Source of the DNA: Blastocatellia bacterium
GTDB lineage: Bacteria; Acidobacteriota; Blastocatellia; Pyrinomonadales; Pyrinomonadaceae
Assembly: GCA_003168335.1 (NCBI GenBank)
Contig: PMSM01000006.1
Span: 448,320-512,319 of the forward strand
Length of the DNA stretch: 64,000 bases
Direction of reading: 5' to 3'
The notes under the pieces were generated by a model, which worked only from the letters and a program-made list of their open reading frames with translations, was not told the origin of the DNA and did not search any database. The translations under genes were made by a program, and so were the position numbers. Positions 990 to 62,514 of this stretch are shown here, in pieces (position 1 is the stretch's first letter; each line of letters opens with the position of its first letter).

Positions 990-1855
990 AAGAGATGAAG
1001 TTCTACGGCACCGCGCTACCCGGTCTTGAGATCGAACCTTACAGCGGCAAACTAATTGTGATCGAAGGCACTGATGGTGTGGGTCGCTCGACCCACGTCG
1101 CCCTCTTGCGCACCTGGTTGGAATCCAGCGGTCACGCAGTGCTCGATACCGGCATGACGCGTTCCGTGTTGGCCGGCCGCGGAATCAAGGACGCCCGCGA
1201 AGGCCACACGCTGGGGCGTCTGACCATGCAGCTCTATTACGCGACAGATTTTGCCGACCGGCTGGAAAACCAGATGCTGCCCGCACTGCGAGCGGGCTTT
1301 GTCGTGCTGACTGATCGTTACATCTATTCGGCCATTGCGCGCGCCGTCGTCCGGGGCGCCGACCCGGAATGGGTGCGGGCGATTTACGGCATGGCTCTGG
1401 TTCCCGACGCGGTTTTCTACCTGCGCCTGCGTTCGACAGAAGAGTTGGCCGGACGCGTGCTGGCCTCGGGCCGTGGTTTTGATTACTGGGAATCGGGCAT
1501 GGATCTCGGGCTGGGAAATGATTACTACGACAGCTTCATTGCTTATCAAAAGTTACTGCTGCGCGAGTTCGATCGCATGAAGGGCGAGTATGGCTTTCAC
1601 GAGATCGATGCGTCTCGTCCCGTCAGGAGAGTCGCTGCTGCACTGCGCCGGTCAGTGGCGCGCGTGATCGACAATGAACCCGCGAGCACCCCGGGCCCTA
1701 AAGCTGAATCGCCGGAAAAGATGAGGACCGACGAGAACCAGACCATCAAGCAAGTCGCCAAGGCCGACTCCCAGGAAAAAGCAAAGACCGGCAGTAGCCC
1801 GACCGTGAGGGAGGGCTCCAAGGCCGACTCCCAGGAAAAAGCAAAGACCGTATGA
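986..1855 (+). CDS. Thymidylate-kinase-like protein with altered Walker A and repeat-built tail
   Basis: A 289-residue paralog of the preceding kinase. Its P-loop reads GTDGVGRST (residues 28-36), with arginine 34 where the catalytic lysine should be, which usually cripples phosphate transfer. The DRY motif (TDRYIYSAIARA) and the family's acidic signature (ESGMDLGLGNDYYDSF) remain. After about residue 230 the protein runs into a low-complexity charged tail in which KADSQEKAKT occurs twice; at DNA level this is a 33-base direct repeat 60 bases apart, separated by half of a palindromic repeat. The gene overlaps both neighbours by four bases, so translational coupling is likely. It may be a regulatory or binding subunit of the first paralog (inference). 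It could still be active if arginine is tolerated. Confidence 0.7.
   Translation: MKEMKFYGTALPGLEIEPYSGKLIVIEGTDGVGRSTHVALLRTWLESSGHAVLDTGMTRSVLAGRGIKDAREGHTLGRLTMQLYYATDFADRLENQMLPALRAGFVVLTDRYIYSAIARAVVRGADPEWVRAIYGMALVPDAVFYLRLRSTEELAGRVLASGRGFDYWESGMDLGLGNDYYDSFIAYQKLLLREFDRMKGEYGFHEIDASRPVRRVAAALRRSVARVIDNEPASTPGPKAESPEKMRTDENQTIKQVAKADSQEKAKTGSSPTVREGSKADSQEKAKTV
1758..1850. repeat. 33-base direct repeats flanking a half palindromic element, in frame
   Basis: Bases 1758-1790 and 1818-1850 are identical. Between them, 1791-1819 matches (in reverse) the interspersed GAGCCCTCCC-type repeat also found at 28982, 31129, 44339 and 60124. The whole array is translated as part of the kinase-like protein's tail. 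Confidence 0.85.
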
Positions 1856-19634: not shown

Positions 19635-19932
19635 ATTTGGAGTGCGCTGACTTGTCAGCGCTTTGGTAAGCGGCAAATTGTCGCCGCAGAACGATCTAAC
19701 ATGCTGCTGAAAAATGGTAGGGGCGGGCAAAGACATCAGGAACGATCCACGAAATAACACGAAAGAGACTCGAATTCGGTGTCTTCTTCGTGCATGCTTC
19801 GTGTCTGTTCGTGGATCGTATTGGTCTCTGTTCAGGCTGCGAATGTTTGAAAACACCGGCCGCTACGTTGCGGCGCGCTGACTAGTCTGCATTTGAAAGC
19901 GGCGACAAGTCGCCGCACTCCAAACTTTTTCT
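19635..19932. repeat. Repeat-filled gap: two copies of one palindrome flanking another
   Basis: Bases 19636-19690 and about 19873-19924 are two degenerate copies of the TTTGGAGTGCG...CGCACTCCAAA element seen compactly at 62459-62514. Between them is a different palindrome with arms ACGATCCACGAA (19742-19753) and TTCGTGGATCGT (19808-19819). No gene is present. Confidence 0.85.
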
Positions 19933-20812: not shown

Positions 20813-23455
20813 ATGCTAAGATTGACGATTCAAAAGATGAACCGACAGGCTTTCGATACGCTGGAATTCAATCCGCTGCGGGCGCTGGTGCGTCGCGGCG
20901 CGCAGACTGCGATGGGCAGGGCGCGTCTTGATGCGCTGGAACCGTCCGATGATTTGCTTCACCTGCAACATGCCCTCAGAGCAGTTGCAGAAAGTATTGA
21001 GCTGCGTCAGCACGGAAGCCGTCTGTCGTTCGACGGAATTGCCGACGCGACTGATTCGATCTCGCGCTTGAAGATCGAAGGCGCGGCGCTTGAACCGTTG
21101 GCCCTTCTCGATCTGGCGCGCCTGTGCGAGCGCGCGACGGAGACGCGCGCAACGATCCTCGCGGAACGCGACCAGGCTCCGACGTTGTTCGAGATCGTCG
21201 CGGAGTTGCCCGCCGAATTGAAACAGCTGGCGGCACTTTTGAATCGCAAGATTCTACCGGGCGGCGAGCTTGATGACCGCGCCAGCCCGGAACTCGCGCG
21301 GATTCGTCGTGAACTCGCCAGTGCCCGCTCACGAATTACGCGCTCGCTGGAAGGCGTAATGCGCCGCTCGAGCGAAGCGATCCAGGAACAGCTGGTCACA
21401 GTGCGTAATGATCGCTTCGTGATTCCCGTCCGCGCCGATCATCGCGCGCGCATCAATGGCGTCGCGCACGGGTCCTCTTCGTCAGGCGCAACGATCTTTG
21501 TCGAGCCGCTGGAAACAATCGAAGCGAACAACGAACTGCAATCATTGCGGGAAGCGGAGCAACGCGAGATCGCCGAAATTTTATTCGCGCTCTCAGAAGA
21601 GCTGCGACAGGAGTTGCCGGCGATTGAGCGAGGCGCAGAGGCTGTCGCGGAACTTGATTTCATCAACGCGAAAGCGGCGTTCGCCGAGAGATTCAATTGT
21701 GTCGTTCCGGAAGTGGCACAGACTTCAGTCCGTGGTGCTGACGAATCACAGACTGAAGTCTGTGCCACTGACACGCTCGAATTCATCGAAGCTCGGCATC
21801 CTTTATTGGAAGAAACCCTGCGCGCCACCGGCGCTAAGGTTGTTCCGGTTTCATTCAAGCTGGGTGACGAAAATCCGACGATGGTTATTTCGGGGGCCAA
21901 CGCGGGCGGCAAGACTGTGGTGCTTAAAACTGCCGGACTGCTTTCGCTGATGGCGCTTTCAGGCTTGCCGGTGCCGGCGAAACAAGCCCGTGTTCCTTTC
22001 TATCGATCTGTTCTGGCGGACATCGGCGATCATCAATCGCTGGCCGCCAACCTCTCGACTTTTACTTCGCACGTCGCAAACATCGCGTCGATGATCGAGT
22101 CCTGCGCCACGCCGGCGCTGGTACTGCTCGACGAAGTCGGCACCGGAACCGATCCGGAAGAAGGTTCGGCGCTGGGCGTAGCGGTGGTCGATCATTTCAA
22201 ACAGCGCGGCGCGCATGTGCTCGCCACGACGCACTATTCCGGTTTGAAGATGTATGCAGGCAACGAGCCCGGCGTGCTGAATGCCAGCGTTGAGTTCGAT
22301 GAAAAGACGCTACGGCCTACTTATCGTCTGCTGGTCGGCATTGCCGGCTCGTCATCGGGACTGGAAATCGCCCAGCGCTTTGGCATTCCCGCCGCGGTGA
22401 TCGCCAATGCTATGGAACAGGTGAAAGGGTCTTCACGCGCTTCGATCGAGTACCTGCAGCGCATTAAGCGCGAAGCCGAAGAAGCTGAAGCCCTGCGCCG
22501 AGCGTTGGAAGAGGAACGCAGCGCCGTGGCGGAGAAGTTTGCGGCGCTGGATGAACAGGCGGCGAAGCACGAGGCAGCACGCCAGGCTGAGTTAGAAAAA
22601 GAACTCTCCCAGGCGGTAAAGGAATTCGAAGAACGCAGTCACGAGCTTGTGGCTAAGATTGAAGACCGCGCCTCGCGTTTGAAGCTGGACCGCGAAGCTG
22701 CGCGCCGCACGGCTGAGCTAAAACGCGAAGCTCAGCGCGTGGCGGAAGTCGCGAGCAAGATTGAACACGGCTCTCGAGGTTCGTCTTCTCAGGGTTTGTC
22801 CCCGCAGATCCGCGGCGTTCGCGTAATTCGTGATGGCCAGGTAGTCAGTGATCTTCCGGCTGAGGCGGACAAAACAAAACCGATTCAAGCGCGTGTGGCA
22901 CGTGGTGCGCGCGCCGCCCGACAGGATATCCGCGGACCCCTCCGCGATCTGAAAATTGGGGATCGGGTGCGGCTGCTTTCGTTTGGCTCAGTTGGAATAG
23001 TTAATCATATCCGTGACGACGAGGCCGAAGTGCGCGTCGGCTCGCTGCGAATGCGCGAAAAGCTTGAAAATCTCGAGCTTGTATTTGAAGTCAGTACCGC
23101 GAGCGGAAGCCCGCGCGCCAAACCTGACACTCTGGAAGCACTGCGACGACAGGCGCAAACAACTGAAGTTCACCTGCACTCAGATGGGCAGCACCATTCA
23201 GAGTCGGATGTGAAAACGGAATTGAAGTTGATCGGCAAAAAGACTGACGAAGCGGTTGAGCTTACGGACAAGTTTCTCGATGAAGCTTTCTTGAACGGCC
23301 TGACCGAAGTGCGCATAATCCACGGCCACGGCACCGGTGCGCTGCGTCGAGCAATCACGGAATTCCTTAAAGATCATCCGCACGTCGCGCGGTTTGCGGC
23401 CGCGCAACAAGATCAAGGTGGCGCCGGTGCAACGGTAGTTGAGTTGAGACGCTGA
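20813..23455 (+). CDS. mutS2: MutS2 family ATPase/endonuclease
   Basis: 880 residues, somewhat longer than usual MutS2 (about 780). The ATPase has Walker A GANAGGKT at 361-368, LLDEVGTGTDPEEG (Walker B) and the TTHYSGLK motif. A coiled-coil clamp region (about 535-650), a KOW-like segment (KIGDRVRLLSFGSVGIV) and a C-terminal Smr nuclease domain (VRIIHGHGTGALRRAI) follow. MutS2 acts on recombination intermediates and in Gram-positives on collided ribosomes. Residues about 301-320 are encoded by an in-frame palindromic repeat (21713-21768), and EVSTASGSPRAKP near 760 reads through another half-repeat; both help explain the extra length. ATG 20837 is an alternative start. Confidence 0.93.
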   Translation: MLRLTIQKMNRQAFDTLEFNPLRALVRRGAQTAMGRARLDALEPSDDLLHLQHALRAVAESIELRQHGSRLSFDGIADATDSISRLKIEGAALEPLALLDLARLCERATETRATILAERDQAPTLFEIVAELPAELKQLAALLNRKILPGGELDDRASPELARIRRELASARSRITRSLEGVMRRSSEAIQEQLVTVRNDRFVIPVRADHRARINGVAHGSSSSGATIFVEPLETIEANNELQSLREAEQREIAEILFALSEELRQELPAIERGAEAVAELDFINAKAAFAERFNCVVPEVAQTSVRGADESQTEVCATDTLEFIEARHPLLEETLRATGAKVVPVSFKLGDENPTMVISGANAGGKTVVLKTAGLLSLMALSGLPVPAKQARVPFYRSVLADIGDHQSLAANLSTFTSHVANIASMIESCATPALVLLDEVGTGTDPEEGSALGVAVVDHFKQRGAHVLATTHYSGLKMYAGNEPGVLNASVEFDEKTLRPTYRLLVGIAGSSSGLEIAQRFGIPAAVIANAMEQVKGSSRASIEYLQRIKREAEEAEALRRALEEERSAVAEKFAALDEQAAKHEAARQAELEKELSQAVKEFEERSHELVAKIEDRASRLKLDREAARRTAELKREAQRVAEVASKIEHGSRGSSSQGLSPQIRGVRVIRDGQVVSDLPAEADKTKPIQARVARGARAARQDIRGPLRDLKIGDRVRLLSFGSVGIVNHIRDDEAEVRVGSLRMREKLENLELVFEVSTASGSPRAKPDTLEALRRQAQTTEVHLHSDGQHHSESDVKTELKLIGKKTDEAVELTDKFLDEAFLNGLTEVRIIHGHGTGALRRAITEFLKDHPHVARFAAAQQDQGGAGATVVELRR
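21713..21768. repeat. Palindromic repeat inserted in frame in mutS2
   Basis: Arms 21713-21730 and 21751-21768 are inverted, starting GTGGCACAGACTTCAGTC. The last 29 bases recur with one difference at 28702-28730. The element keeps the reading frame and adds about 20 residues (AQTSVRGADESQTEVCAT) before the ATPase domain. Confidence 0.9.
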
Positions 23456-28530: not shown

Positions 28531-28540
28531 TTGAAGGTGT

Positions 28541-28680
28541 TAATGCCGGGAGCGCGGAGGTCTCGTCCGCACTGAGCGCGCAGCGCGAACAAGCGTTCCC
28601 AGGTCACATCAAGTTTAGCGCTAGAGAACTGAGCGAGCCGCGCTCGCTATGCGGACGAGACGTCCGCGCTCCCGGCATTA
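28541..28680. repeat. 140-base MITE-like inverted repeat
   Basis: Terminal inverted arms of 31 bases (28541-28571 and 28650-28680, one mismatch) begin TAATGCCGGGAGCGCGGA and end with the reverse. The centre is GC-rich and itself partly palindromic. There is no coding capacity. It lies between rpoD and the radical SAM gene. Confidence 0.88.
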
Positions 28681-28701
28681 ACTTGTGTGTGATGTACCCA
28701 C

Positions 28702-28730
28702 GACGAATTACAGACTGAAGTCTGTGCCAC
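28702..28730. repeat. Half copy of the ACAGACTGAAGTCTGT palindrome
   Basis: 29 bases matching 21740-21768 in mutS2 with one mismatch. It contains the perfect palindrome ACAGACTGAAGTCTGT and ends GCCAC. It lies eight bases before the radical SAM start codon. Confidence 0.8.
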
Positions 28731-28737
28731 TATTTCT

Positions 28738-30702
28738 ATGAAAAAAATCATCGAAAGCTACAAGCGAAAGCTGGCCGGCGAAGAAGGCTGGGTATTGAAG
28801 CGCGGCGCAGACCTGCGCATCGCGCTTTGCTATCCAAACGTCTACGCGATCGGCATGGCTAACCTTGGCTTTCAGGCGATGTACGAAATTTTCAATAACA
28901 TTCCTGAAGTCTCCTGCGAACGAGTTTTCCTGCCGGACAGTATCAGAAGCCCGCGCGTAAGCAAGGGCTCGGCTGATGATCGAGCCCTCCCTAACGGTCG
29001 GGCTTCTGACACACTTGACGAGCTGCAGGAGTACGAACGCACCCGCACGTCGCTGCTCTCGCTGGAATCACAATCGAAGCTGCGCGACTTTGATGTGATC
29101 ACCTTCTCGATCTCCTTTGAAACTGACTATGTAAACCTGGCGCGCATGCTGCAAATGAGCGGCGTGCCGGTTTGGGCCAAAGATCGAACAAAGCACGATC
29201 CGTTGATAGTCATGGGCGGCGCGGCGTCGTTTCTGAATCCGGAACCGATAGCCGAGTTCACCGACGTGATCGCGGTCGGCGAAGGCGAAATCCTCGGGCC
29301 AAAACTGATCGACGCCCTCCTGGAAAACGGAACGAAGGAAGAGACGTTGTTGGCACTGGCGCGACAAGGTCGCGGCTTCTATGTGCCTTCGCTCTATTAC
29401 GTAAGCTACAAAGACGACGGGACAGTGGCGGCGTACACGCCGCTGGCTGAGGGCGTGCCGCCGCGTGTCGGTCGCGCCGTGTCGGCTGAAAACCCGAAAG
29501 AAGGAAGTTTGCGTCGCGCAATTCGACGTGGACAAACGGACATTGTCGCGCAATTAAAGCGCGATGAAGTCTTCGCGCCCTCGACAACTATCTGGGCGCC
29601 CCAGGCCGAGATGGGTGATCGGTTTCTAATCGAGATTTCGCGCGGTTGTTCGCAGGGTTGCCGTTTCTGCTGGGCTGGTTACAACTACTGGCCACCTCGC
29701 GTGGTGCCCGCGCGGGACATTCTGGCCAAGGCCGCCGCGTGGCGCGGGAAGACCGACAAGATCGGTCTGGTTTCCACCGCCGTGTGCGATCACCCTGAGA
29801 TAAGCGAAATCCTGCAGGGCCTGCGCGCGATGGACTATCGCATTTCGGTTTCGTCCCTGCGCCTCGATCAGATTTCGGAAGAGCTTTTGGATGCGCTGGT
29901 CGAATCACGCGATCAGCAGATCGCGGTAGCGCCAGAAACGGGATCAGATCGCCTGCGTCGTGTCATCAACAAGAACCTGACCAACGATGAGATCGTCGAC
30001 ATCTGCGGCGCCGTTTTCGATCGCGGCATGCTGACCATTAAGCTTTACATGATGGTTGGCTTGCCGACTGAAACCGACGAAGATCTGGCAGAGATGATTA
30101 CGCTGGTCGAGCGCATCAAGGATCGCATGCTGGAGGCGGGCAAACGCTTCGGCAGAGCCGGCAAGATCATTCCGTCGCTCAATGGCCTGGTGCCCAAGCC
30201 GAACACGCCGTTTCAGTGGGAAGCGATCTGCAGCGAAAAGGAATTGAAGCGTCGTCTGAAATGGGTTTCCAAAAACCTGTCGCGCATTCCCAACGTCGAA
30301 GTTCGCGCTATGTCGGCGCGCATCGCGCACGAACAGGCGCTGTTCTCTTCCGGCGATCGACGCATCGCGCGCGTCATCGAAGCTACGGCGCGTTTGAACG
30401 GCGATCTGAATGCGGCGCTGCGCGAAACACAAATCGATCCCGCCTTTCACACCAGCCGCCGGCGCGGCTACGACGAAATCCTTCCCTGGGAGATCGTTAA
30501 CTCCGGGCTGTCGCGCGAGTTCATGCAACGCGAAGACGAACGGGCCCACGAAGCCCGCTCAACTGCCCCTTGTCCTTCCGTAAATCAATGCACGCGCTGC
30601 GGAGTCTGTCCGACTACGTGGCTGGGTGAAGCCCCGATCGCGCTCGTGCAATTGCCGGCGCACGCTACTCATCCTGCCGCGAAAGCCGCGCTGCTTATTT
30701 GA
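28738..30702 (+). CDS. B12-binding-type radical SAM protein (TIGR03960-like)
   Basis: 654 residues. The N-terminal half resembles a cobalamin-binding-type domain (LCYPNVYAIGMANLGFQ, VMGGAASFLNPEPIAEF, VGEGE). The radical SAM motif is CSQGCRFC (Cys304, 308, 311), followed by GSDRLRRVINKNL and MVGLPTETDEDL. The C-terminus ends with a second Cys cluster, CTRCGVC, and lacks the DUF2344 domain often fused or adjacent. The reaction is unknown; relatives are annotated only as uncharacterised radical SAM proteins. Residues about 69-91 are encoded by a full palindromic element (28943-29010), not part of the family core. Confidence 0.85.
   Translation: MKKIIESYKRKLAGEEGWVLKRGADLRIALCYPNVYAIGMANLGFQAMYEIFNNIPEVSCERVFLPDSIRSPRVSKGSADDRALPNGRASDTLDELQEYERTRTSLLSLESQSKLRDFDVITFSISFETDYVNLARMLQMSGVPVWAKDRTKHDPLIVMGGAASFLNPEPIAEFTDVIAVGEGEILGPKLIDALLENGTKEETLLALARQGRGFYVPSLYYVSYKDDGTVAAYTPLAEGVPPRVGRAVSAENPKEGSLRRAIRRGQTDIVAQLKRDEVFAPSTTIWAPQAEMGDRFLIEISRGCSQGCRFCWAGYNYWPPRVVPARDILAKAAAWRGKTDKIGLVSTAVCDHPEISEILQGLRAMDYRISVSSLRLDQISEELLDALVESRDQQIAVAPETGSDRLRRVINKNLTNDEIVDICGAVFDRGMLTIKLYMMVGLPTETDEDLAEMITLVERIKDRMLEAGKRFGRAGKIIPSLNGLVPKPNTPFQWEAICSEKELKRRLKWVSKNLSRIPNVEVRAMSARIAHEQALFSSGDRRIARVIEATARLNGDLNAALRETQIDPAFHTSRRRGYDEILPWEIVNSGLSREFMQREDERAHEARSTAPCPSVNQCTRCGVCPTTWLGEAPIALVQLPAHATHPAAKAALLI
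28943..29010. repeat. Full palindromic element inserted in frame in the radical SAM gene
   Basis: Inverted arms TCAGAAGCCCG... (28943-28970) and ...CGGGCTTCTGAC (28982-29010) of the GAGCCCTCCC family. It adds roughly 22 residues rich in Ser, Arg, Asp and Ala to the N-terminal domain. Confidence 0.9.
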
Positions 30703-31128: not shown

Positions 31129-31157
31129 GAGCCCTCCCTGACGGTCGGGCTACTGCC
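31129..31157. repeat. Half palindrome, GAGCCCTCCC family
   Basis: 29 bases beginning GAGCCCTCCCTGACGGTC and ending CTACTGCC, in the gap after aroB; the last bases touch the aroB stop region. Same family as 1791, 28943, 44300 and 60124. Confidence 0.85.
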
Positions 31158-32327
31158 TTAATAGAGTGCTTGCAAACCTGCTCGCAGAGAGGATTGCAGG
31201 AGTCGCTTATCGATTTGGTTTCCCTCAACGATGCGCGCCCGGCCGATTCGTTCCAGCAAAACCCACCTCATTACGCCGCCGACGGATTTTTTGTCGTGTT
31301 TCATTGCCCGGATTATTCCATCTATCGCCAGATCATGGGCCGGGGGTAGTGGCCCGCAGAGGCGCACCGCCTCGCGCAACGATTCTAACTCGCCAGCGGC
31401 GAGCATGCCTACATTTTTTGATATTTCGCCGGCGACCAGCATGCCATAGCCCACGGCCTCGCCGTGGCGAAAGCGCCGGTAACCAGTCGCTTTCTCAAGC
31501 GCGTGGGCTATTGTATGGCCAAAATTGAGAATGCGCCGCGAGCGGTGATCGGCGCGGCTTATATCTTCCTGCTCGTCGCCGGCCACGATTGCAGCCTTGA
31601 AACGACAGTGCGCCGCCACTACTTCATCCAGGTCCGTGGCAAAGACTTTGGTCTGTGCCTCTCTCTTGTTGCCCGGACTAAAGTATCTGCCGCCTGCGCC
31701 AAGAAAGCGACGAGTCTGATCGAACAACTTTCGACTGCCGACCGCGCCCTGCTTCACAGCTTCGCACCATCCCGATGTCGATTCCCGCCGGGGCAGGGTT
31801 CGCAAAGTTTCAGTGTCGATCAAGACGACGCGCGGTTGATGAAAAGCGCCGACGAGATTCTTGCCGGCCGCGAGGTTCACGCCGGTCTTGCCGCCAACTG
31901 AAGCGTCGATCTGTGCGAGCAAGGTTGTCGGCACTTGCACGAAAGCGAGGCCACGCAGATAAGTCGCGGCGGCAAAACCCGCCAGGTCTCCAACGACTCC
32001 GCCGCCCAGCGCGACCACCGCATCGCCTCTCTCGAGTCCGGATGTGGTTAAGAACTCGATCGCCTGTTCCCAGGATCGGAACGACTTGTGTCGCTCACCC
32101 TCGGACATCAACCAGTGTGTGGTTTTGAAATTCCCGGCCTTGAGACTTTGCAGAGCCCGCTTTCCGTAGTGCTCGAACACAATCGGATTTGAGATCAGCG
32201 CGGCGCGAAGTGAGTTTGGTCCAAGCACGGCACGAACTTCACGGCCCAACTGTGACAGCAGGCCCGCGCCAATTTTGATTTCGTAATTTGTTTGTCGCGC
32301 CGGCAAGCGCACCTGAATTCGCGGCAT
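31158..32327 (-). CDS. aroB: 3-dehydroquinate synthase
   Basis: 389 residues from ATG 32327. The NAD/zinc enzyme of the shikimate pathway: GGGVVGDLAGFAAATYLRG and PTTLLAQIDASVGGKTGVN are the signature segments; zinc ligands lie in WCEAVKQG (Glu), NFGHTIAHALE (His) and RHGEAVGYGM (His). It turns DAHP into 3-dehydroquinate. It is slightly longer than usual (about 360) because of an expanded segment around residues 195-225 (LGAGGRYFSPGNKREAQ). It stands without other aro genes; the small membrane protein follows. Confidence 0.93.
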   Translation of the reverse strand: MPRIQVRLPARQTNYEIKIGAGLLSQLGREVRAVLGPNSLRAALISNPIVFEHYGKRALQSLKAGNFKTTHWLMSEGERHKSFRSWEQAIEFLTTSGLERGDAVVALGGGVVGDLAGFAAATYLRGLAFVQVPTTLLAQIDASVGGKTGVNLAAGKNLVGAFHQPRVVLIDTETLRTLPRRESTSGWCEAVKQGAVGSRKLFDQTRRFLGAGGRYFSPGNKREAQTKVFATDLDEVVAAHCRFKAAIVAGDEQEDISRADHRSRRILNFGHTIAHALEKATGYRRFRHGEAVGYGMLVAGEISKNVGMLAAGELESLREAVRLCGPLPPAHDLAIDGIIRAMKHDKKSVGGVMRWVLLERIGRARIVEGNQIDKRLLQSSLRAGLQALY

Positions 32328-42905: not shown

Positions 42906-44219
42906 ATGAAAAAGCCCTCAATGTATATTCTCATTACGCTAGTACTCTCGGTTGCCGCCGGCTCTCAAGCACAATCATCCAGATCTATCGAATCGATGAC
43001 TCGTCCGCGGGTTGTCGCCGGATCAAAAGCGGCTAGCCCTTCGAAGTCAAAGTATCAGGGTCAGTCTACTCAGCAGCAGACACCCTCTCGTCCGACGGAA
43101 ACCGGAAACCGGTCCATCGAAAAGGCAAGCACGCCTAGCCGACAGCAGCAGGAAGAATCGAGATCGTCATCGCGTGAGGAACCCAACGCCTCTCTTCGCC
43201 ATCTTTCACCCAACCGGATTCGGTCGCGCATCAACGAAGCACAACGCTTGATGAAGATCCGCCCCGTGCCGACTTCGATGATGGCGCCTTCGCTGGATTA
43301 CGTGACCGTGGCCGCATTGTTGCCGGAAACCTCGCAGATTCATCTGATCCGCATTGCGAAGCAAACCTTCCTGACCAAGGGCGCTGAGCTTTCGTCGACG
43401 ACTTCGTTGGGGTTACCGGTCCAGGTCCGCATCGTGCGCGCCAATGGCGTCAACACGGCCGTGACGGTCTTTGACGAAAAGAACCGGTCCTTGTTGCCCC
43501 TGGTGGCGGAATTCCCGATCGAACACCGCGGCGTATTTCGCGAGATGGCTTATTACACGTCGGCCCATCCGGCGCTGTTGTCAGCCGAACTGATGAAGTC
43601 GGGCCAGACCTACGTGAACTCGATGGTTGACCTGGCGGCGAAGCGGCTGCGTGAAAGAGGCGTGAACGTCGCCCCGAACCTCGTGGAAGTTGCCAAGCGC
43701 CTTTGCATCATCGAGCACGTCGATCACGATCGCTTTCGAAATGAAAATCGCATCGCGCTCTTCGAAGAAATTTATACGCTGTACGCGTTGAATGAACTCG
43801 ATACTTATCGTTACTCGGTAAGTTCAGCCGGCGCGGGTGGCATGGTACAGATGATTCCCTGGACCTATGCACTCATGCGCCAGCGCCATCCCGGCGTGGG
43901 TTTGAATCCCGATTTTGTCGCGGGCATGCGCAACCACGGCAATGCGCTGGAAGCGATGTTGCTTTACATGCAGGACACCTGGAACGATCTGTCGGCCAAC
44001 GAAGACGTGCAATCAGCTCTCAGCGCCAGGCAAGCGACCACCACCGAACTGCTGGCTGCCGGCTATAATTCAAACGCCGCCAAGCTGCCCGGCTACATCC
44101 GGCGGGCTGGCGCGGGTTGGCGCACGCTGATTCCGCGTGAAACCCAAATCTATTTACAAATCTATCAGTCGTTGGATAGCTTGATGAAGCCAAAAGAAAA
44201 TCATCGACGGAAGAAGTAA
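42906..44219 (+). CDS. Lytic-transglycosylase-like exported protein
   Basis: 437 residues. A signal peptide (MYILITLVLSVAAGSQAQ) precedes a Ser/Gln/Arg-rich low-complexity stretch up to about residue 100. The C-terminal half has a lysozyme-like pattern: RLCIIEHVDHDRF with a candidate catalytic Glu, then SSAGAGGMVQMIPWTY, comparable to the GAxGxMQxxPxT motif of SLT domains, and AMLLYMQDTW. It would cut peptidoglycan in the periplasm. The motif fit is good but not perfect, so enzymatic activity is inferred. A terminator follows. Confidence 0.7.
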   Translation: MKKPSMYILITLVLSVAAGSQAQSSRSIESMTRPRVVAGSKAASPSKSKYQGQSTQQQTPSRPTETGNRSIEKASTPSRQQQEESRSSSREEPNASLRHLSPNRIRSRINEAQRLMKIRPVPTSMMAPSLDYVTVAALLPETSQIHLIRIAKQTFLTKGAELSSTTSLGLPVQVRIVRANGVNTAVTVFDEKNRSLLPLVAEFPIEHRGVFREMAYYTSAHPALLSAELMKSGQTYVNSMVDLAAKRLRERGVNVAPNLVEVAKRLCIIEHVDHDRFRNENRIALFEEIYTLYALNELDTYRYSVSSAGAGGMVQMIPWTYALMRQRHPGVGLNPDFVAGMRNHGNALEAMLLYMQDTWNDLSANEDVQSALSARQATTTELLAAGYNSNAAKLPGYIRRAGAGWRTLIPRETQIYLQIYQSLDSLMKPKENHRRKK

Positions 44220-44299: not shown

Positions 44300-44367
44300 G
44301 TCAGAAGCCCGCCCGTGAGGGAGGGCTCATTTTCCCAGAGGCCTTCCCTCACGGTCGGGCTTCTGAC
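44300..44367. repeat. Full palindromic element, GAGCCCTCCC family
   Basis: Inverted arms 44300-44328 and 44339-44367, beginning GTCAGAAGCCCG and ending CGGGCTTCTGAC. The same length and arms as the copy inside the radical SAM gene at 28943-29010. It lies between a terminator and the cytochrome gene; the remaining gap to 44522 holds nothing further recognised. Confidence 0.9.
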
Positions 44368-44522: not shown

Positions 44523-45758
44523 ATGAAACTAAATATTCTCAGACTTCTCGTCGTCGCGTTGGCGTGCGCCAGTGCCGTGATGCTTTTCACCAACGTCCGC
44601 GCGCAAAAATCGCCGGTCAACCCGGAGTTCGCGGTTTCGCTATCGAGCCTGGGCATGGCCGTGCCCGCGCAAACACCGGCCGCGCCCGCAGCCCCGCAAG
44701 AGAAGACGGTTGACCAGACGCGCAAGAATATTAAGGTGCTCAAGGGACTGCCTGATTCGCAACTGGGCACCGTGATGAATTTCATCGCCATTTCGATGGG
44801 CCGGCGATGCGATTTCTGTCACGTGAATAAGGGCGGGACGTGGAACTGGGAATCCGACGACAAGGAAGAGAAGCTGACTGCTCGCAAGATGATGACGATG
44901 ACCCTGGCTCTTAACAAGGACAACTTCCGCGGCAGCCCCACGGTGAGCTGCTACACCTGTCATCGCGGCCGCAATTCGCCACAGGGCATTCCGTCGTTCC
45001 CGCTCCCAACACCCGCGCCGCGTCCGCAACCGCAGGCAACGCCGGCTCCCGGTCAACCCGCGGCTACGCCGGCGCCAACTCCGGCGGCGCCGACAGGCGA
45101 TCAGATTCTGGCAAAGTACATCGAAGCGCTGGGCGGGCAGGCAGCCATCGACAAGATGAAAACGCTCGTGATGAAAGGCACCTACGCCGGCTTTAACGGC
45201 ACGGCGGTGCCTTATGAAGTCGATCTGGCCGCGCCTGACAAGTTCTACATCAACGCCACCTCGCCACAGGGAACTATCGAGAGAGGTTTCGACGGCAAAG
45301 CCGCCTGGGAGAAAGGTCCGCGTGGAGTGAATGAGCTTATGAACCCCGTGCTCGACGATCTGAAGTCGACATTCCTGTTCTTCCACAACATCAAACTTAA
45401 GGAACAGTTCACCCGTTTGCGTGGAGGCAGGAAGGACAAGATTGGCGACCGCGACGTTATCGTTGTGAATGGCATGACTGCCGACAACCATCGCGAGCAG
45501 CTTTTCTTTGACGCTGAAACCGGTCTGCTGCGGCGCCGCATTTCTTATCTGGAAACACCAATCGGCGTGATTCCCAACCAGGTTGATTTTGAGGATTATC
45601 GAGACGTTGATGGCGTGAAGGTTCCGTTCACCGTGAAGGTCTCGTCAGTCGAGCCGGGCCTGGTCTCAACTCGCGTCTACACCGAGATCAAACTTAACGC
45701 ACCGGTAGACGATGCGAAATTCAAGATGCCGGCGGCACCGGCGAAGGCGACTCCGTAG
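44523..45758 (+). CDS. Exported two-haem cytochrome c with C-terminal sorting-type domain
   Basis: 411 residues, preceded by CGGAGC. A signal peptide (LLVVALACASAVMLFTNVRAQ) is followed by two haem motifs, CDFCH (96-100) and CYTCH (143-147), in the arrangement of the photosynthetic reaction-centre cytochrome subunit-like family that is common in non-phototrophic Acidobacteriota. A Pro/Ala-rich linker (about 155-190) leads to a beta-rich domain of about 220 residues (ILAKYIEALGGQAAIDKMKTL..., WEKGPRGVNEL, QVDFEDYRDVDGVKVPF) resembling outer-membrane lipoprotein-sorting/LolA-like proteins. Electron transfer in the periplasm is likely; the partner is unknown. Confidence 0.85.
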   Translation: MKLNILRLLVVALACASAVMLFTNVRAQKSPVNPEFAVSLSSLGMAVPAQTPAAPAAPQEKTVDQTRKNIKVLKGLPDSQLGTVMNFIAISMGRRCDFCHVNKGGTWNWESDDKEEKLTARKMMTMTLALNKDNFRGSPTVSCYTCHRGRNSPQGIPSFPLPTPAPRPQPQATPAPGQPAATPAPTPAAPTGDQILAKYIEALGGQAAIDKMKTLVMKGTYAGFNGTAVPYEVDLAAPDKFYINATSPQGTIERGFDGKAAWEKGPRGVNELMNPVLDDLKSTFLFFHNIKLKEQFTRLRGGRKDKIGDRDVIVVNGMTADNHREQLFFDAETGLLRRRISYLETPIGVIPNQVDFEDYRDVDGVKVPFTVKVSSVEPGLVSTRVYTEIKLNAPVDDAKFKMPAAPAKATP

Positions 45759-60123: not shown

Positions 60124-60152
60124 GAGCCCTCCCTAACGGTCGGGCTACTGCC
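60124..60152. repeat. Half palindrome, GAGCCCTCCC family
   Basis: GAGCCCTCCCTAACGGTCGG... ending CTACTGCC, 29 bases, in the gap between the ligase and dioxygenase genes. One base differs from the copy at 31129. Confidence 0.85.
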
Positions 60153-61114: not shown

Positions 61115-61199
61115 GATGTCCGACAAACTTCAGTTTGTCGACGACCTCAAAACCGGCTGCTTGTGCCTGACAACGACAAACTGAAGTTTGTCGGACATC
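61115..61199. repeat. Perfect 26-base inverted repeat
   Basis: Arms 61115-61140 and 61174-61199, starting GATGTCCGACAAACTTCAG, are exact reverse complements. The right arm abuts the kynureninase stop codon. The core ACTGAAGT is shared with the ACAGACTGAAGTCTGT family at 21751 and 28711. It may also work as a hairpin terminator. Confidence 0.92.
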
Positions 61200-62396: not shown

Positions 62397-62458
62397 GAAG
62401 AATTCTCCGTTTGGTTCGAGCTAATTTACCACAGTTGGGCGATCAGACTTGCCCTATA

Positions 62459-62514
62459 TGGAGTGCGCTGACTTGTCAGCGCTTTCAAAAGCGGCGACTA
62501 GTCGCCGCACTCCA
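62459..62514. repeat. Compact palindromic element, TTGGAGTGCG family
   Basis: 56 bases starting TGGAGTGCGCTGAC and ending GCCGCACTCCA, containing two inner hairpins. It is the intact form of the two degraded copies at 19636-19690 and 19873-19924. It lies in the divergent gap between kynU and the OYE gene. Confidence 0.88.

Follow-up and report, generated by a model that had tools for sequence, protein, structure and literature searches.

How a strong palindrome came to lie inside a protein gene with the reading frame kept is the question raised by positions 28943-29010 of the window, that is, of the whole 64,000-nucleotide stretch of DNA analyzed here. A preliminary description of this DNA had reported a 68-nt palindrome in frame in a radical SAM protein, and the coordinates, the frame of ORF 28738-30702 and the folding all agreed with that report. 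Folded as RNA, the element formed a hairpin of −45.7 kcal/mol, compared with −24.7 ± 3.2 for shuffled sequences (z −6.5). It was built from two palindromic units of ~25 nt, arranged as an inverted pair in the manner of a REPIN, and its ends were AGTGTCAGAAGCCCG...CGGGCTTCTGACACT. Very probably, the element is a small mobile repeat of the non-autonomous kind: palindromic REP units form a REPIN-like inverted pair, and this pair entered the radical SAM gene with the frame kept, at a surface loop that tolerates changes in length. The host gene, the element and related copies in the window are listed in Table 1.

Table 1. Positions in the window of the host gene, the inserted element and further members of the repeat family
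Feature	Position	Strand	Remarks
Single half-unit, GTAG type, in frame near the C-terminus of a dTMP-kinase-like gene	1791..1819	+	between two 33-bp repeat copies
Host gene: TIGR03960-type B12-binding radical SAM protein, 654 aa	28738..30702	+	TIGR03960, PF19864 and PF04055 matches
Inserted in-frame segment, 25 residues (IRSPRVSKGSADDRALPNGRASDTL)	28942..29016	+	length difference to empty-site orthologues
5′ palindromic half-unit, subtype B (AGAAGCCCGCGCGTAAGCAAGGGCT)	28943..28970	+	pattern match, 0 mismatches
3′ half-unit, subtype A (AGAAGCCCGACCGTTAGGGAGGGCT on minus strand)	28982..29010	-	pattern match, 0 mismatches
Single half-unit, GTAG type, abutting the 3′ end of an aroB-like gene (31158-32327)	31129..31157	-	
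Intergenic REPIN-like pair, A-A type	44300..44367		−58.9 kcal/mol, z −8.9; between ORFs 42906-44219 and 44523-45758
Single half-unit, GTAG type, intergenic	60124..60152	-	

The host protein scored 429.8 bits against TIGR03960, below the cut-off of 462.3, and matched PF04055 (Pfam Radical_SAM) at residues 298-456. Its N-terminal profile matches were interrupted at the insert, and the PF19864 match began directly after it (residue 94, profile position 26). An AlphaFold2 model made from 44 sequences had a mean pLDDT of 80 and a pTM of 0.83, and among solved structures the best Foldseek matches were cobalamin-dependent and other radical SAM enzymes. Residues 70-91 had pLDDT values below 50 and were modeled as a loop between strand 58-65 and helix 95-102, so that the suggested surface-loop position is borne out by a predicted disordered loop. 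Orthologues from 73 relatives were then compared by the number of residues from Cys60 to Glu-Tyr. This spacing was 13 residues in all scored orthologues outside the genus except L174, and 38 in the window protein; judged by eye, nine outgroup orthologues that the script had left unscored also had this spacing, and L129 was left out of the scoring. Relative to this empty site, the insert thus measures 25 residues rather than the previously estimated 22 or so. Orthologues free of repeats but carrying the same residues would have spoken against an inserted repeat; instead, the site was empty in all scored outgroup orthologues but L174 and in the sister species G004. Two further repeats were observed near the host gene. 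An unrelated imperfect inverted repeat with 49-nt arms (86% complementary) occupied 28539-28682, just upstream of it, and a near-identical 30-nt repeat (97%) with ACAGACTGAAGTCTGT was present at 28702-28731, also upstream, and at 21740-21769 in ORF 20813-23455.

The copy at 44300-44367 had been regarded as the same element and, with the genic one, as the clearest genic and intergenic pair. It is intergenic and of the same family, but it is another copy: gaps are needed to align the two, and the 5′ arms differ in subtype (CGCGCGTnAGCAAGG at 28943-29010, CCCGTGAGGGAGG at 44300-44367). A better partner is the nearest copy in the genome, G000:C14:36282-36349, which is intergenic and 96% identical. 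In the 5.16 Mb genome that holds the window (G000), the half-unit pattern AGnAGCCCGnnCGTnAGnnAGGGCT (~25 nt, up to 3 mismatches) gave 205 matches (97 + 108), and the reversed pattern, used as the control, gave 3 (2 + 1); therefore, chance is excluded. The arms fell into two main subtypes, A (GACCGTnAGGGAGG) and B (GCGCGTnAGCAAGG), and the units occurred in two contexts: pairs had the ends GTGTCAGAAG, and units standing mostly alone lay in CGGGGCAGTAG. A sample of ~0.78 Mb contained 39 inverted pairs with spacers mostly of 10-27 nt, 19 of them A-A and 11 mixed (A-B or B-A). The variable base agreed between the two arms in 11 of the 19 A-A pairs, which was above expectation (P about 0.01) and suggests copying between arms or pressure on pairing. 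In the genomes of the genus, 33-272 half-unit matches were counted per genome when up to 2 mismatches were allowed. The pattern was missing from many further genera of the family, but G022 and G013 were rich in it, and so were G045 and G057, which belong to another family. The related records were soil Acidobacteria group 4 / Pyrinomonadaceae assemblies; phages were considered as a source of the element and gave no match. The window also holds another dispersed palindromic pair at 19635-19688 and 62456-62509 (GCGCTGACTTGTCAGCGC followed by an AGCGGC...GTCGCCGC hairpin, 87% identical) and, between two genes at 61115-61199, a perfect 26-nt inverted repeat with a 33-nt spacer.

Genic copies were then analyzed in the same sample, which consisted of the window and the stretches around listed copies and thereby favours well-preserved copies; genes were called by a gene finder script written for the analysis, on which the genic fractions rest. 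Of 103 elements scored, 66 were intergenic, 13 lay across a gene end, and 24 (the one at 28943-29010 and 23 others) were wholly inside predicted genes. As 83% of the sample is coding, genic copies are depleted but common. The frame encoding (R/S)SPTVREG was used by 14 of the 24; given which frames are free of stops in each copy, 7.8 would be expected (P about 0.004). The resulting peptide, "(R/S)SPTVREGS...ALP(D/N)GRASDT", is polar. The host genes included those for MetRS, BshC, a tRNA-uracil methyltransferase, 2-oxoglutarate dehydrogenase E1 and an ABC transporter ATPase. In MetRS, the insert lay in a linker that was variable in every species compared. An amidohydrolase gene (L088) contained three in-frame inserts: two belonged to the element's family, and the third was a different palindrome (CGTTTAG...CTAAACG), which G003, G005, G006 and each of the ten outgroups inspected lacked. 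At the two sites of the element's family, most outgroups were shorter, although their loops there also varied in length. Two large ORFs, of about 2600-2670 aa within the sampled stretches, carried, in the same local context (AFGV.DRGSSPTVREGV), a single unit (L068 4001-4025) and a pair (L101 4001-4075).

Next, the possible route of movement was considered. Duplications of the insertion site between copies, which had been proposed as a check, were not above control: direct repeats flanking the sampled elements, the trait of a MITE moved by a DDE transposase, were no commoner than at random positions. The sole odd case was 1758-1850, where two exact 33-bp copies flank the half-unit and the C-terminal segment is missing from the G001 and G004 orthologues of the dTMP-kinase-like gene; similar flanks were seen at no other sampled element. 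Y1 transposases were present in all seven genomes of the genus. Together with the lack of target duplication and the potential for a single-stranded hairpin, this is consistent with a REPIN whose movement depends on a RAYT-type enzyme acting in trans. At the Y1 loci inspected, from G000 and other members of the genus (±1.5 kb), no Y1 gene was tightly flanked by the element, and the few nearby copies lay roughly 0.8-1.4 kb away. The element at 28943-29010 ends in AGAAG and not in the GTAG of classical RAYT-linked REPs, while AGTAG was confined to the mostly single-unit subfamily. We infer that the element would be copied through a single-stranded hairpin by such a Y1 transposase and inserted without target duplication. 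Genic copies would then be purged by selection unless they offer a frame without stops and fall in a loop that can accommodate them, and the survivors would mostly stand in the frame that gives the polar peptide. The encoded peptide would probably have no function of its own and would drift into unique loop sequence. At L048 1423-2077, a Y1-transposase-like gene was observed between inverted GTTTAGAGGCGGGC repeats resembling the extra palindrome of the L088 amidohydrolase; judging from these repeats, the CGTTTAG...CTAAACG-like family may have its own enzyme.

Within the genus, the same loop was found filled, empty and eroded. The spacing from Cys60 to Glu-Tyr was 51-58 residues in G001, G002, G003, G005 and G006, whose inserts are 38-45 residues long, and 13 in the empty G004. 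Recognisable pairs were present in G002 and G003 and a partial one in G001, whereas the palindrome was no longer recognisable in G005 and G006, with the frame kept. Six of the seven species thus carry an insert at the same codon, with Ser on the left flank and a similar right flank. The arms were of type B-A in G000, A-A in G002 and A-B in G003, and an NGSGYD-like tail was present in G001, G002, G005 and G006 and absent from G000. The extra tail of the G002 insert was considered as a further repeat and rejected, as a second copy was absent across the genus. In a tree of the gene without the insert, G000 was sister to the empty-site G004 (96/98 for protein, 99/97 for DNA). Outside the genus, L174 (genus g8) had a different insert in the same loop; it opens with a copy of ACCCACCCGCTACCGCAGGTGGTACTGAC, which is likewise repetitive (14 matches in the genome of L174, 31 in G000).

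These states could descend from one ancestral insertion in the genus that was inherited vertically, with a precise loss in G004, a shortening in G000 and arm types changed by gene conversion. The shared codon, Ser and right flank of the six filled species agree with this course of events, as do the amidohydrolase sites, which appear vertically inherited, G004 included; moreover, excision of REP doublets is known in Pseudomonas (PMC3116915). However, G004 stands at exactly the empty length although it is the sister of G000, the tail shared by four species is missing from G000, and several linked changes separate the arms of the species. The copy in G000 is closest to one at another place of the same genome (96%), the Ser codon AGT on the left flank could be supplied by the end of the element, and another genus has a different repeat in this loop. 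We regard a single insertion as possible but somewhat doubtful. The tree, the different arm types and the tail missing in G000 would instead favour at least two insertions at the site. On this view, which we hold to be about as likely as not, the loop would be a repeated landing site: REPINs would have arrived independently at the same codon region, as would an unrelated palindrome in another genus, and mobile palindromes would keep providing core enzymes of the family with new loop peptides.

Whatever their number, the insertions might have been kept for a benefit. One candidate is a role of the palindrome as RNA or DNA in the gene (mRNA stability, attenuation or gyrase binding), with the peptide as a by-product. 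The hairpin is strong enough to recommend it, and REPs at gene ends in other bacteria may act in this way (PMC3733652), but the orthologous inserts of G005 and G006 have kept the frame and not a recognisable palindrome, and G004 lacks the insert altogether, which makes such a role very unlikely. Alternatively, the peptide could have been recruited for a function, for example a protein-protein contact, and be under selection. The preferred frame points in this direction, as does the retention of similar peptides at matching sites among related species; nevertheless, sequence and length diverge widely (a spacing of 51-58 residues in the five relatives, 38 in G000), the sister G004 does without the insert, and the frame preference may reflect tolerance of the peptide alone. 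Recruitment is hence also very unlikely.

In-frame palindromes have so far been known mainly from Rickettsia and from a survey of complete genomes. The present one is of a known kind in a new lineage; it is more unusual that one loop has likely been hit more than once and that species of the genus have insertion sites in common. Its main value is that filled, empty and eroded states at one site in seven related species make the life of an insertion traceable, and this series can test whether mobile repeats create protein loops or only burden genes. It follows for annotation that SPTVREG and ALPDGRASDT in acidobacterial proteins are repeat-derived peptides, not domains.

The Rickettsia palindromic elements, according to PMC10969869 and PMC3733652, are dispersed palindromes found in frame in unrelated protein genes and also between genes. 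Compared by description only, they share with the present element the in-frame insertion in unrelated genes, the recurrent peptide and the intergenic copies; however, they measure about 150 bp in one account and belong to Rickettsia, whereas the element here has 68-75 nt in two ~25-nt units and belongs to Acidobacteriota. The REPINs of Pseudomonas fluorescens SBW25 (PMC3116915) are likewise inverted REP doublets with a short spacer, hairpin-forming and dispersed; a high copy number, another trait of REP doublets, is also seen here. The SBW25 REPINs were analyzed as extragenic, in contrast to the element here, where about a quarter of the sampled members (pairs and singles) are genic; a flanking RAYT was not found. 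In the portion of PMC3733652 considered, which makes no mention of the Acidobacteriota lineage of the element, intragenic GTAG/CGTC REP dimers are described from Opitutus terrae, Thauera, R. conorii and others. These add 20-30 residues, occur several per gene and have housekeeping hosts including tRNA synthetases; in one case, the recB of two Xanthomonas, different REPs lie at about the same site. The inverted REP pairs within ORFs, the 20-30 added residues, the occurrence several per gene and the housekeeping hosts, tRNA synthetases among them, recur here. The two differ in that the paired element at 28943-29010 ends in AGAAG, so that the unpaired GTAG tag beside the stem, a trait of the GTAG REP superfamily, is replaced, and in that an empty-site and within-genus comparison is available for the element described here.
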